A stretch of 43,912 bases of DNA from Verrucomicrobiota bacterium (GTDB taxonomy: Bacteria > Verrucomicrobiota > Verrucomicrobiia > Chthoniobacterales > UBA10450): assembly GCA_003219415.1 (NCBI GenBank), contig QHOS01000022.1:1-43912 (forward strand), read 5' to 3'. The translations under genes and the position numbers were made by a program. The first letter of the stretch is position 1, and each line of letters begins with the position of its first letter. Positions 10,152 through 28,701 of the stretch are shown here, piece after piece. The notes below the pieces were generated by a model. It saw only the letters and a list, made by a program, of their open reading frames with translations. It made no database searches and was not told the origin of the DNA.

Positions 10152-10225
10152 GCCCACTAAACACACGAAATATCCGAAATGAAATTCACAGTAATCTTTT
10201 CGTGTTTTTCGTGTGTTTCGTGGGC
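10152..10225. repeat. phased-arm palindrome P2 (period 9, CACGAAA units)
   Basis: Lies inside the efflux operon, between the HlyD and ATPase genes. Left-arm units of nine bases: CCCACTAAA (10153), CACACGAAA (10162), TATCCGAAA (10171). Right-arm units on the minus strand: CCCACGAAA (10224-10216), CACACGAAA (10215-10207), AACACGAAA (10206-10198). The arms pair across a spacer of about 17 bases. Confidence 0.8.
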
Positions 10226-10233
10226 ACCGCTAC

Positions 10234-17101: not shown

Positions 17102-17212
17102 TGTCATCTCGAACGAAACGAGGGACCTCGCCTACGAAGTTTGCGTCACCTCGGGCGGTCAGCGTAATCGATCTCTCTTGTCGGAGGTCCCTCGCTGCGC
17201 TCGGGATGACAT
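17102..17212. repeat. TGTCAT-type palindromic repeat, copy 4 (GAGGGACCTC subtype)
   Basis: Left arm TGTCATCTCGAACGAAACGA followed by GGGACCTCG; right arm on the minus strand TGTCATCCCGAGCGCAGCGA followed by GGGACCTC. It occupies the whole spacer between the RlmI-like gene and the coiled-coil operon and could terminate the upstream transcript. Confidence 0.85.
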
Positions 17213-17221
17213 TTGAGCGTG

Positions 17222-18391
17222 CTACCGTCCCGGCATCATTTCCAGAAGGAAGCCTTTGAAATATTCCGTTTCGGGAATTGTCGGCAGCACGGGATGATCG
17301 GGCGCTTGCTCGAACCGGCGTAACCGTCGGGCGGACCGCCGGGCGTCGACAAGCGCATCGGCGATTGCCTGCGAAAATGCGGTATCGCTCACGTGATGGG
17401 AACATGAAAAGGTCGCCAGCAGGCCATCCTTTGACAACAGCTTGAACACGCGCATGTGCAATTCCCGGTAGCCACGCAACGCGTCGCGCAATCCGCTCCT
17501 GGTTTTTGTAAACGACGGCGGATCGAGAACAATCAAATCATACTGCACCCCGGCTTTTTCGGCCGCGCGCAGGAACTGAAAGACATCCTGCTCGATCCAT
17601 CGCACTTCCAGATCATTGCGCACCGCGTTTCGTTTCGCACCTGCGATGTTCTCGGAGCTTTCTTCAACCCCGGTCACATCCGCCGCGCCCGCGCGGACGC
17701 AGGTCAGCGCAAATGCTCCCTGATTGGTGAAACAATCCAGAACGCGCCGGCCGTGCGCATATCCAACAAGGACCGAATAATTGTGTTTTTGATCAAGATA
17801 AAAACCGGTCTTTTGTCCATGCAAAAGATCGATTTCGAACTTTACGCCTTCGATTTCGATCCCGATTTGCGATGGACTGTCTCCGCGCAAAACGCCGCTG
17901 CGTAATTCCATCCCTTCCGCCTTGCGGACAGGCGCGTCATTTCGTTCGATGATCGTGGCGTTTCCAAAGAGATCGATGACCGCATTGGCGATCAAATCTT
18001 TTCGCATGTCCATCGCCAGAGTCAGCGTTTGCATCACGAAATGATCGCCGTATCTGTCGATGATCAACCCCGGCAAGCCGTCGCTTTCGCTCCAAACGAC
18101 ACGGCAGAGTTTGGGATCGACACCCCGTCGTGTCCGGTATTCTGTCGCTTGGGCGATGCGTCGTTTGAAGAAATCCAGATCCAGTTCCTGTTTTCGACGC
18201 GAAAAGCGGCGCCCCACGATTTGTGACTTGGAATTGTAGATCGCGCTGCCGATCAGACGATCCTTACCGTCCTTTAGGGAGATGACATCGCCGTCCGCCG
18301 GTTTTCCAAAGACTTTCAGCACTTCGCTGGAAAATACCCAATCGTGTCCGTGCAGAATTCGCGCTCGCGGTTTGACAACGATTCCGGCCAT
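17222..18391 (-). CDS. RlmI-like class I SAM-dependent rRNA methyltransferase
   Basis: Probable 23S rRNA (cytosine-C5) methyltransferase of the RlmI/YccW type, 389 residues. An N-terminal PUA-like RNA-binding domain (KPRARILHGHDWVFSSEVLK, about 7-80) is followed by the EEHGI-like middle region and a Rossmann methyltransferase domain: FYLDQKHNY, motif I region VLDCFTNQGAFAL (about 218-230), the acidic binder GVEESSENI, and LDPPSFTK (about 289-296). CSHHV near 335 carries a cysteine, as RNA m5C enzymes often do. It is divergent from purC across palindrome P3. Confidence 0.9.
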   Translation of the reverse strand: MAGIVVKPRARILHGHDWVFSSEVLKVFGKPADGDVISLKDGKDRLIGSAIYNSKSQIVGRRFSRRKQELDLDFFKRRIAQATEYRTRRGVDPKLCRVVWSESDGLPGLIIDRYGDHFVMQTLTLAMDMRKDLIANAVIDLFGNATIIERNDAPVRKAEGMELRSGVLRGDSPSQIGIEIEGVKFEIDLLHGQKTGFYLDQKHNYSVLVGYAHGRRVLDCFTNQGAFALTCVRAGAADVTGVEESSENIAGAKRNAVRNDLEVRWIEQDVFQFLRAAEKAGVQYDLIVLDPPSFTKTRSGLRDALRGYRELHMRVFKLLSKDGLLATFSCSHHVSDTAFSQAIADALVDARRSARRLRRFEQAPDHPVLPTIPETEYFKGFLLEMMPGR

Positions 18392-18406
18392 GGTTTCAAA
18401 TGAAGT

Positions 18407-18480
18407 GTGAAACGTGAGAAGTGATTAGTGAGAAGTAATTAGGCTGCCCACTTCTCACCTCTTACGTCTCACTAATCACT
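18407..18480. repeat. phased-arm palindrome P3 (period 7)
   Basis: Between the divergent rlmI-like gene and purC. Five left-arm heptamers in exact step: GTGAAAC (18407), GTGAGAA (18414), GTGATTA (18421), GTGAGAA (18428), GTAATTA (18435). Five right-arm heptamers on the minus strand, also in exact step: GTGATTA (18479-18473), GTGAGAC (18472-18466), GTAAGAG (18465-18459), GTGAGAA (18458-18452), GTGGGCA (18451-18445). It ends seven bases before the purC ATG, so it must lie in that gene's leader. Confidence 0.85.
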
Positions 18481-18486
18481 ACGCAT

Positions 18487-19383
18487 ATGCAAACCGCCAC
18501 ACAATCGTCCATCGAACTACCGGGAATCAAGAAATTGCGCAGCGGCAAGGTGCGCGAAGTTTTTGATCTTGGCGACACGCTTCTGTTTGTCGTAACCGAT
18601 CGGATCTCGGCTTTCGACGTGATCCTGCCCGACCCGATCCCGCACAAGGGCGCCGTGCTCAATCAAATTTCCGCGTTTTGGTTCAAGCGTTTCGGGGACA
18701 TCAAGAATCACCTCGTGACGGCGAATTTCGAAGAGTTTCCGAAGGAGTTGGAATCGTTCCGCGAGCAGCTCGCGGGACGCTCGATGATCGTGAAGAAAAC
18801 GAAGCCGCTCGCGGTGGAATGCGTGGTGCGCGGTTATCTGGCTGGCTCCGGATGGAAAGAATATCAGGAATCGCAGAACGTTTGTGGAATCGAGCTTCCG
18901 GCCGGACTAAAACAAGCCTCGCAATTACCGAAGCCAATCTTCACGCCGTCGACGAAAGCAGAGCAAGGTCATGACGAGAACATCGACATGAAACAATGTG
19001 TCAGGATTCTCGGCGATGAAATTGCCAATCGCTTGAAAACGCTGAGTCTCGAAATTTATTCGCTCGGCCGCGAATATGCGGCGCAAAAGGGAATCATCGT
19101 TGCAGACACGAAATTCGAGTTTGGCATCGTCGATGGAGAATTGCTTTTGATCGACGAATGCCTCACGCCGGACTCTTCACGGTTCTGGCCGAAAGATGAA
19201 TACATTGTCGGGCAGAGCCCGCCGAGCTTCGATAAACAATTCGTGCGCGATTATCTGGAGACACTCGACTGGGACAAAAGTCCGCCTGCTCCGCGTCTCC
19301 CGAGAGATGTTATCGAGAAAACGTCGGCGAAATACCTCGAAGCATTTCGCCGCTTAACCGGCAACGAGATCGCAAACGCTTAG
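18487..19383 (+). CDS. purC: phosphoribosylaminoimidazole-succinocarboxamide synthase
   Basis: SAICAR synthetase of de novo purine synthesis: ATP-dependent ligation of aspartate to CAIR. It is 298 residues, the longer form of the family. Motifs: [20 protein letters not shown] with the ATP-binding loop and [20 protein letters not shown] at the N-terminus, [18 protein letters not shown] in the middle, and ADTKFEFG...[16 protein letters not shown] in the second half. No other purine gene is adjacent. Its 5' leader consists of palindrome P3, which leaves no obvious Shine-Dalgarno sequence. Confidence 0.97.
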
Positions 19384-19404: not shown

Positions 19405-19497
19405 TGTCATGTTGAGCGAAGCGAAACATCTCTGACTGTTCCAGCGAAAGACTGCTCCGAAAATGATCAGAGATTCTTCGCTTCGCTCAGAATGTCA
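19405..19497. repeat. TGTCAT-type palindromic repeat, copy 5
   Basis: Left arm TGTCATGTTGAGCGAAGCGA with AACATCTCTG; right arm on the minus strand TGACATTCTGAGCGAAGCGA with AGAATCTCTG. The internal spacer resembles that of copy 6 (ATCATTT...GGAGCA) but in the opposite orientation, so these are two insertions of one element. It follows purC. Confidence 0.9.
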
Positions 19498-23555: not shown

Positions 23556-23648
23556 TGTCATTCTGAGCGAAGCGAAGAATCTCAGATCATTTCTGGAGCA
23601 ACCCTCTGCAAGAATAACCAGAGATGTTTCGCTTCGCTCAACATGACA
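23556..23648. repeat. TGTCAT-type palindromic repeat, copy 6
   Basis: Left arm TGTCATTCTGAGCGAAGCGA with AGAATCTC; right arm on the minus strand TGTCATGTTGAGCGAAGCGA with AACATCTCTGG. It lies between the convergent Zn-ribbon methyltransferase and mdh genes, a position suited to a bidirectional terminator. It is the inverse orientation of copy 5. Confidence 0.9.
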
Positions 23649-25359: not shown

Positions 25360-28300
25360 ATGCCGCGAAATAACGAGCTTAAAAAAATCCTGCTGATCGG
25401 GTCCGGTCCAATCGTAATCGGACAGGGTTGCGAATTTGATTATTCCGGCGTGCAAGCGTGCAAGGCGTTGCGCGAGGAAGGCTATGTGGTCGTGCTGGTG
25501 AATTCCAACCCAGCCACCATCATGACCGATCCAGAATTCGCGGATCGCACCTATATCGAGCCGATCACTCCGGAAGTAATCGAGGCGATCATGGAACGTG
25601 AAAAACCAGACGCTATTTTGCCAACTCTGGGCGGACAAACTGCGCTTAACGCTGCGATGGAATTGAACCGCAACGGCGCGTTGGCGCGACACGGGGTGAA
25701 GTTGATTGGCGCAAACGCCCAGGCGATTGCAAAAGGCGAAGATCGCCAATTGTTTAAGGAAGCGATGTTGCGCATCGGGCTGGACGTGCCGCGCTCAGAA
25801 GTGGCGCGTTCTCTCGCGGACCTTGACCGTATCGTCGCTGAAGTTGGAACTTTTCCGCTCGTCATTCGCCCGGCCTTCACTCTGGGCGGAGCCGGCGGTG
25901 GGATCGCTTACAATCGTGAGGAGCTCGATGTAATCGCGGCGCGAGGCCTCGATCTGTCGCCGGTCCACGAAGTGCTGATTGAGGAATCGCTGGTCGGATG
26001 GAAAGAATTCGAGATGGAAGTGATGCGCGATCGAATGGACAACTGTGTGGTTGTTTGTTCCATCGAGAATTTCGATCCGATGGGTGTGCATACCGGCGAC
26101 TCGATTACTGTCGCGCCCGTGCAGACCCTTACCGACAAGGAATATCAGATCATGCGCGATGCTGCGTTCGCGGTCATTCGCGAGATCGGTGTGGAGACCG
26201 GCGGTTCGAACATTCAGTTTGCGGTGAATCCTGACAACGGCCGGATGGTCGTAATTGAAATGAACCCGCGGGTCTCGCGTTCCAGCGCGCTGGCGTCGAA
26301 GGCAACGGGATTTCCGATCGCGAAAATCGCGGCAAAGCTCGCAATCGGTTACACGCTTGATGAAATCAAGAACGATATCACCCGCGAAACGCCGGCATGC
26401 TTTGAGCCGACCATCGATTACTGCGTGGTGAAGGTGCCGCGGTTTACGTTCGAAAAATTTCCGCAGGCGGATGCAACGCTCACGACGCGGATGAAAAGCG
26501 TCGGCGAAGCAATGGCTATCGGACGGACGTTTAAGGAAGCCTTGCAAAAAGCGCTTCGCAGTCTGGAGATCAAGCGCTTCGGCTTATGCGGCGATGGTGC
26601 GAATAAAGATGTCGATGCTGAGACGTTGCGCTTGAAGCTGGCGATCCCGAACGCGGAGCGGATTTTTTATCTAGCCCAGGCGTTTCAAGACGGAATGCCA
26701 ATCGACGAAGTTTTCGAATTAACGAAGATCGACAGGTGGTTTTTGCGGAATGTGCAGCAGATCGTGGAGGAAGCGAATCGGCTGCGTAGTAGCACAGGCA
26801 TCTTGCCTGTGGGGCAGGCGGGCGTCTCGCCTGCCGAACGGGAGAATGACTCAAGCGGCCGTGACCCGCAATTTCATCCCGTGGATCGGCACGGGAAAAT
26901 TCAAAAACACCAGCCCGCCGGCCCCACAGGCAAGATGCCCGTGCCACAACTTCTTCGCGCAAAAAAGCTCGGTTTTTCAGATCGACAACTGGCGGTAGCG
27001 AACGGAGTCAGCGCAACTGAAATCCGTACCAAGCGGCAGTCGTCAGGCGTCCTGCCTACCTATCGGCTCGTCGATACATGCGCGGCGGAGTTTGAAGCGT
27101 ACACGCCTTATTACTACTCGACGTATGGCGATGAGAACGAGCGGCGCGAGAGCGGCAAACGCAGGATTATGATCCTTGGCGGCGGCCCGAACCGGATCGG
27201 CCAGGGAATCGAATTCGACTATTGCTGCGTGCACGCGGCCTTTGCTCTGCGCGAGCTCGGATTTGAAACCATCATGGTCAACTCCAATCCAGAAACGGTC
27301 TCCACGGATTACGACACGAGCGACAAACTTTACTTCGAGCCGCTCACGCTCGAAGATGTGCTCAACATTTATGATCAGGAGAAACCAGAGGGCGTATTCG
27401 TTCAGTTTGGCGGTCAAACACCGCTGAATTTGGCGGACGGATTGAAGGCGGCAGGCGTACCCATTCTTGGCACTCAGCCCGAAAGCATTGAGACCGCAGA
27501 AGACCGACGCTTGTTCGCGGCCATGCTCGACAAGCTTGGTCTGCGCCAAACCCCAAATGGATCGGCCACGAGCACCGAAGACGCCGTCGCGATAGCCAGG
27601 AAAATTGGCTATCCAGCACTTGTTAGGCCGAGCTTCGTTCTCGGCGGGCGCGCCATGGAGCTTGTCTATAATGAGGAGGATCTTCGGCGTTATATGGCCA
27701 GCGCCATTGAGGTAACGCCTGATCGTCCAGTGCTGATCGATCGTTTTCTTGAAGATGCGATTGAGGTCGATGTCGATTGCATTTCGGACGGCGAAGCGAC
27801 CGTGATCGGTGCAATCATGGAGCACATCGAGGAGGCGGGCATTCACAGCGGTGACAGTGCATGCGTCATTCCGACATTCTCGTTGTCGCAAGAAGTTCTG
27901 GACGAGATTTCCGCCGCCACAAGGGCGATGGCGCGCGAGTTGAATGTGCGAGGCCTGATGAATGTGCAATTCGCCGTGAAGGGCGACAACGTTTACGTGC
28001 TGGAAGTGAATCCGCGGGCGTCGCGCACGGTTCCCTTCGTCAGCAAGGCAATTGGTGTCCCGCTTGCAAAACTCGCTGCCAAAGTGATGACCGGAAAATC
28101 ATTGTGCGAGCTCGGGTTCACAGAGGAAATCGTGCCGAAACATTTCTCGGTGAAAGAAGCGGTGTTCCCCTTTCTGCGCTACGAAGGCCTGGATATCTCG
28201 CTCGGGCCGGAGATGAAATCGACCGGCGAAGTGATGGGCATCGATGTCGATCTCGGCCTCGCCTATGCAAAATCGCAGATGGCCGCACCGCCGCCACTGC

Positions 28301-28701
28301 CGAAAAGCGGAAAAGTGTTCATCAGCGTCAAGGACACTGATAAGGAAGCGGTGATCCCGGTCGCGCGCGAGTTTGTGAAACTCGGCTTTGAAATCATTTC
28401 CACGAGCGGGACTGCAGACGCGCTGACAAAGGCGAAAATCAAAGTGACCAAGGTCTTCAAGATTCACGAAGGACGCCCAAATGTCCTCGACCGCATCAAG
28501 AATGGCGACATCAACTTCATCATCAACACGCCTAGCGGGAAAATTCCGCGCGAGCACGAAGTGGTCATTCGCAATGCGGCGCTAGCGGCGAAAATTCCGA
28601 TCATGACGACGGTGCGCGCCGCGCTGGCGAGCGCGAACGGAATCCGATCACTGCAAAAACGCAAGGTTCAGGTGCGCAGTTTACAGGAATACCATACGTG
28701 A
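25360..28701 (+). CDS. carB: carbamoyl-phosphate synthase large subunit, with repeat-encoded insertion
   Basis: Makes carbamoyl phosphate from bicarbonate, ammonia (from CarA) and two ATP, for arginine and pyrimidines. Order: first ATP-grasp half ([20 protein letters not shown] near residue 11; [10 protein letters not shown]), the oligomerisation domain (about 400-600), second ATP-grasp half ([19 protein letters not shown] at about residue 605; [12 protein letters not shown]), and the C-terminal MGS-like allosteric domain (from [13 protein letters not shown], about 985). At 1113 residues it is about 40 longer than the E. coli enzyme. The excess is an in-frame block at about residues 477-530, encoded by the palindrome at 26788-26950, inside the oligomerisation domain. 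carA is not in the window. Confidence 0.97.
26788..26950. repeat. TGILPV/TGKMPVP palindromic repeat inserted in frame inside carB
   Basis: Long inverted repeat. Left arm (26788-26824) and right arm (26911-26948) share CAGGCATCTTGCCTGTGGGG, or its near-copy on the other strand. The left part contains two hairpins of its own: CACAGGCA/TGCCTGTG (26793-26811) and GGCAGGCG/CGCCTGCC (26813-26835). The reading frame crosses the element without a stop, giving [18 protein letters not shown] at one end and [12 protein letters not shown] at the other. The element is otherwise of a type found between genes. Confidence 0.9.

Follow-up and report, generated by a model that had tools for sequence, protein, structure and literature searches.

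A palindrome of phased heptamers between rlmI-like and purC genes of a verrucomicrobial genome and its probable relation to S23 elements

The palindrome in the rlmI-purC spacer

The window analysed here is the whole stretch of 43,912 nucleotides from the verrucomicrobial MAG of a soil bacterium (3.6 Mb, 253 contigs); its nearest named purC relatives are Verrucomicrobia MAGs. Within it, a palindrome fills the spacer between two divergent genes. The match of the RlmI-like gene falls below the curated cut-offs, and this gene is therefore assigned at family level only. The features are as follows.

17222–18391, minus strand: RlmI-like 23S rRNA methyltransferase gene (family level), with 15 nt between its start codon and the left arm of the palindrome
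18407–18441, plus strand: left arm, five 7-bp units towards the centre, GTGAAAC GTGAGAA GTGATTA GTGAGAA GTAATTA
18442–18444: centre, GGC
18445–18479, minus strand: right arm, units read from 18479 to 18445 towards the centre, GTGATTA GTGAGAC GTAAGAG GTGAGAA GTGGGCA
18487–19383, plus strand: purC, ATG at 18487, seven bases (18480–18486) after the right arm

All ten units start with GT, seven of them with GTGA, and there is no phase slip, so that the five exact-phase heptamers per arm of the preliminary description were confirmed when the units were re-read. The left arm contains one C in 35 bases. Period 7 alone stands out, with 20 + 20 of 28 + 28 in the two halves, and other periods from 5 to 10 reach at most 11 per half. 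As a null model, we used 4000 dinucleotide-preserving shuffles of 18392–18486. No shuffle gave a run of five GT-phased units in either half, and no shuffle came up to the inverted-repeat score or to the period-7 score of one half or the other. The superposition of inverted symmetry on tandem phasing, as first described, is thus real and non-random. Shuffled spacers did not yield equally long phased arms, and the relatives G027, G016, G017 and G018 have phased heptads in this place and not a simple unphased hairpin.

The folding z-scores of the palindrome are −4.1 for the plus-strand RNA, −5.6 for the minus-strand RNA and −6.0 for DNA. The arms have more than one pairing register because any GTGANNN unit pairs with any unit of the opposite arm. 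An Rfam search with the palindrome returned just sub-threshold hairpins of microRNA shape, which were taken as chance. An intrinsic terminator was rejected, as there is no G+C-rich stem with a T run at the palindrome. Nor is the palindrome a classical REP, in agreement with the earlier statement that the structure is neither an ordinary REP nor a terminator.

GTGANNN arrays in the source genome and at orthologous sites

The palindrome is not unique. Three phased GTGANNN units have 92 matches in the source genome versus 7 for the reversed control pattern, and the 92 matches group into about 41 places, of which 19 are closed palindromes with loops of 12–51 nt. GTGA is kept and the other three bases vary among the units of one element. 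Loops and the order of units are unrelated between copies, and a masked all-against-all comparison found no shared loop sequence among the closed palindromes; unlike those of a MITE, the copies are thus not similar along their whole length. Although 85% of the sequence is coding, 38 of the 41 places lie outside genes as predicted by a simple codon-usage script. The genes beside the arrays of the source genome are tandem in 18 cases, convergent in 6 and divergent in 5. The emphasis once placed on a divergent promoter region was wrong, as this position is not characteristic of the arrays. We take the palindrome at 18407–18479 to belong to a dispersed class of elements and not to be a regulatory feature of purC.

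The GTGANNN pattern was found in all 34 genomes of the same genus that were searched and in other families of the order. One 5.9-Mb genome from another family (G056) has 477 matches of GTGANNNGTGANNNGTGA, five times the number in the source genome. At L098, L100, L105, L106, L110, L111 and L126, one-sided GTGA arrays, some of them close to contig ends, adjoin a common repeat of about 90–110 bp (70–86% identity), and these perhaps represent the border of a larger element. An unbiased, strict period-7 scan of 435 kb misses GTGANNN arrays because three of the seven bases vary. It yielded nine arrays of different unit sequence, and in this set a putative S23-like gene, recognised by eye, lies between arrays of GATTGCG. 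Gene-less period-7 palindromes with other units are present at L207 and L202, and a period-7 array, AAATCCGAAATCC, lies inside an apparent prmC coding region at L212:13484–13515.

Orthologous sites were compared at two junctions. At MoxR-DUF58, compared in 30 genomes of the genus, an S23 gene stands between GTGA arrays in 10 of the 30, whereas L223 has a GTGA array without the S23 gene and L220 combines an array with the truncated start of an S23 gene, after which comes a GIY-YIG element. Other genomes carry GIY-YIG elements, complete or gene-less, and six of the 30 are empty, with 15–27 nt and nothing more. With-gene and without-gene states thus exist at one orthologous site of the same genus. 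In the rlmI-purC spacer, compared in 29 genomes, GTGA arrays occur in eight and GTTGANN arrays in at least 13, and the loops of several of the latter enclose a TGTCAT palindrome (such nesting is seen at L133, L136, L139 and L147). This spacer is empty or nearly so in five or six genomes, the empty form being about 20 nt, and in G021 it holds a minimal GTGAcatTCAC palindrome. No S23 gene or remnant was found in the rlmI-purC spacer of any of the 29 genomes, 18407–18479 included. The minimum number of changes on a tree of the two genes is 7 at rlmI-purC and 10 at MoxR-DUF58, counts that treat gene trees as species trees and that whole-locus transfer would also raise. In five orthologues, gain or loss of units shifts the alignment, and unit-by-unit covariation was therefore discarded. 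By-eye comparison of empty with filled sites at both junctions gave no evident target-site duplication.

S23 genes between inverted 7- or 8-bp arrays

In contig C120 of the source genome (L108 in G000), facing GTGA arrays 480 bp apart enclose a 154-aa reading frame. This frame matches PF05635 (S23, '23S rRNA intervening sequence protein') with an E value of 1.3e-28 and also the solved structures 2rld and 2gsc. The units at L108 differ from those of the palindrome at 18407–18479 by one base over a 22-nt stretch. The presence of an S23 gene between GTGA arrays led us to test the flanks of PF05635 genes in general. When the 250-bp flanks of 30 S23 loci from the order were scored, period 7 came out best at 28 loci and period 8 at the other 2. 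Period-7 scores averaged 37.1, as compared with 24.0 at random places and 24.3 in shuffled sequence, and the inverted-arm score was 36.5, as compared with 17.9 and 18.1, respectively. Among 27 S23 loci from other groups and phyla, in genomes reached through purC relatives, the best period was 7 in 13 and 8 in 10 (23/27), whereas in control windows displaced by 700 bp one of the two was best in 3 of 23. A second batch of 20 loci gave 7 in nine and 8 in eight (17/20), and 12 of 12 S23 genes on annotated plasmids, from cyanobacteria, Azospirillum, Gemmatirosa and Riemerella, gave 7 or 8. In the pooled sample, which spans Verrucomicrobiota, Omnitrophota, Planctomycetota, cyanobacteria, Azospirillum, Riemerella and others, period 7 or 8 was best in 82 of 89 loci versus 24 of 120 random places (Fisher P = 3e-27); the 89 loci are mostly strong matches and several are mutually orthologous, so that independent cases are fewer and the P value is too optimistic. 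Most of the arrays pair as inverted arms. S23 genes are therefore associated with inverted 7/8-bp arrays.

The flanking units differ from element to element and include GTTGAGA, GTGACGA, GTCAGAG, GATTCAC, TTTTAAG, GGAGCCA and GCTGATA, among more. The two arms of one element match each other (score 32.6), arms of different elements do not (11.0), and the inward strand of the arms has more G than C in 46 of 50 loci. Some S23 elements lie inside operons, for instance at MoxR-DUF58, cas6-cas4 and cas10-cmr3, and elements also occur in convergent spacers and antisense to their neighbours. An element with GGGAGTA units is located between nrdB and nrdA in Nostoc edaphicum, and one with AAAAGCT units between cas6 and cas4 in Pseudanabaena; two annotated cas6-cas4 cases have period-7 inverted arrays. 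Eighteen S23 genes have been counted in cas loci (PMC3936711). In the source genome gene-less GTGA arrays far outnumber those that bear S23, and the correlation of array with S23 copy number is weak once genome size is taken into account (rho 0.52 within the genus and 0.29 for density).

Other small-gene families were compared in the genomes sampled for S23. The arrays around PDDEXK_3 (GxxExxY) genes are inverted and of period 9 in 16 of 23 cases. GIY-YIG genes have inverted arms in 11 of 16 cases, and their inverted ends show no period. Around neither family is the period-7 score raised above background in these genomes. Relative to the other small-ORF families tested, inverted 7/8-bp arrays are specific to S23.

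Origin of the palindrome

In our reading, the palindrome at 18407–18479 probably belongs, without a gene, to a class of S23/heptad elements akin to rRNA intervening sequences. In a complete element, a PF05635 gene would be bracketed by two inverted arrays, whose units of 7 bp, or sometimes 8 bp, are rich in G and poor in C inwards, and the gene-less form would consist of two arrays around a short loop. The palindrome has opposed arrays of this kind, of period 7 only, with a G-rich and C-poor inward strand, and it has inverted arms capable of a long stem, a trait of S23/IVS elements. As mobile or parasitic DNA, such elements would come and go at intergenic sites, and a role in purC or rlmI expression would be unneeded. 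The arrays may act as DNA, in a hairpin or cruciform that can pair in many registers, and slippage together with hairpin-templated correction could keep the arms matched. The least certain step is that S23, whose five-subunit assembly is solved in Xanthomonas, might recognise the repeated units or the hairpin. S23 proteins that are 71–75% identical can have different heptads (GTTGAGA versus GCTGATA), which speaks against simple sequence-specific recognition. As to direction, a gene may have been lost at 18407–18479 or may never have been present. The S23-less rlmI-purC spacer in 29 of 29 genomes gives no support to loss at this site, and arrays could precede the entry of S23. Spread driven by a reverse transcriptase was rejected, as the source genome has no PF00078 match; the compared sites show no transposition event either, and no mobilising enzyme was therefore identified.

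The class has partial counterparts among known repeats. The STRR-type heptanucleotide repeats of cyanobacteria are intergenic direct arrays of period seven in many copies. These and the TAACTGA repeats of Beggiatoaceae (PMC4679880) share period, intergenic position and copy number with the GTGANNN arrays, but they are direct arrays with hardly any inverted pairs, and no S23 link is reported for them. In the 23S IVS of Coxiella burnetii, tandem heptamers (GACAGAT) whose number varies by strain stand directly before S23p, and the ends are inverted repeats (PMC4990558). The S23 gene between inverted repeats and the tandem heptamers are common to both classes. The IVS, however, is located within rRNA helices and removed from the rRNA, whereas the present elements are intergenic, as is 18407–18479, which is not in a 23S rRNA gene, have arrays on both sides and are mostly gene-less. 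Xanthomonas genomes each contain some 70 pairs of GGGAATC heptamer arrays in convergent (inverted) arrangement, and these arrays have been described as possible G-quadruplexes with no S23 link drawn; the same paper cites the heptanucleotide 5'-GTGATTA-3' in Helicobacter (PMC4692102). The GGGAATC arrays are likewise intergenic, G-rich inwards and paired in inversion, but the GTGANNN units are without the G runs of a G-quadruplex. The solved S23 protein XCC0516 is from the same species as the GGGAATC repeats. REP/BIME sequences with RAYT and MITEs resemble the present elements as dispersed intergenic palindromes with gene-bearing and gene-less forms; here, by contrast, nothing but the unit is conserved between copies, no transposase lies between the arms and no target-site duplication was seen. 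The open-access literature searched holds no statement of a general link between S23 and such arrays; preprints and most subscription papers were outside its scope, and the link may be described elsewhere.

A different origin is possible, if doubtful: heptad palindromes could arise and grow by themselves through 7-bp replication slippage and hairpin-templated correction, and the S23, GxxExxY and GIY-YIG genes would be passengers that enter the loops as safe landing sites. The unrelated loops and unit orders, the different heptads of close S23 paralogues, the TGTCAT palindromes nested at rlmI-purC and the minimal palindrome of G021 are all in line with self-growth, as is the general over-representation of bacterial heptamers, for which polymerase slippage has been proposed (PMC4692102). 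Self-growth would leave unexplained why S23 goes with period 7–8, GxxExxY with 9 and GIY-YIG with none, and why GTGA stays constant beside three variable bases within one element. It is rather improbable, and compatible with membership in the S23/heptad class, that the arrays act as RNA. RNase III would then cleave a long stem, as it does in 23S rRNA intervening sequences, freeing the S23 mRNA and making insertion in transcripts tolerable. The highly stable predicted RNA fold, the excision of the Coxiella IVS by RNase III (PMC4990558) and the S23 elements within operons would fit this mechanism. G-U pairs on the S23-sense strand of the arms are not commoner than A-C mismatches (102 versus 130), contrary to selection for an RNA stem, and the convergent and antisense elements also argue against it.

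A regulatory role in the rlmI-purC divergent promoter, as a symmetric operator array or a 5' leader for both genes, is suggested by the close fit of the palindrome between the two start codons, 15 and 7 nt away. We regard it as very unlikely and rejected the promoter/operator reading from a comparison of genomes and positions: in related species the spacer is empty, at about 20 nt, or holds a different heptad palindrome (GTTGANN), similar arrays occur in tandem and convergent spacers, and there is no sigma-70-like site in the spacer. Mobilisation by a RAYT (Y1) transposase, in the manner of REP/BIME elements, is hardly credible, for although the arrays are intergenic, palindromic and multi-copy and most of these genomes have Y1_Tnp genes, the copies lack a conserved head or loop, array copy number is unrelated to the Y1 count with genome size and S23 allowed for (partial −0.31), the gene between the arrays is S23 and not Y1, and a search for PF01797 in 58 genomes gave no specific link to the arrays.

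The role of the S23 protein has been open since its discovery in interrupted rRNA genes. With inverted 7- or 8-bp arrays as its near-constant anatomical partner, a candidate substrate is at hand and the function becomes testable. The link would explain many scattered 'heptamer repeats' and gene-less palindromes of bacterial spacers, and S23 genes within cas operons as passengers. We tentatively propose that S23 with inverted 7/8-bp arrays forms widespread transposase-free mobile elements, of which the 23S rRNA intervening sequences might be just the rRNA-borne subset; S23 might act on the array hairpin and so mobilise copies with and without the gene. The GxxExxY elements, of period 9, and the GIY-YIG elements, with their inverted ends, might be parallel classes built on the same plan.

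Several other palindromes lie in the window. Those at 17102–17211, 19405–19497 and 23556–23648 have TGTCATnnnGAnCGAA ends; in congeners, a small GIY-YIG nuclease gene at MoxR-DUF58 lies between ends of this sequence, and gene-less copies with these ends are nested in loops of heptad palindromes 5' of purC. At 10152–10225, in the spacer 10165–10233, a palindrome of 9-bp-like CACACGAAA / TTTCGTGTG units resembles the period-9 inverted arrays around PDDEXK_3 (GxxExxY) genes of relatives. A 38-nt inverted repeat (89%) around 89 nt is located at 26786–26950, within the long reading frame 25360–28701.
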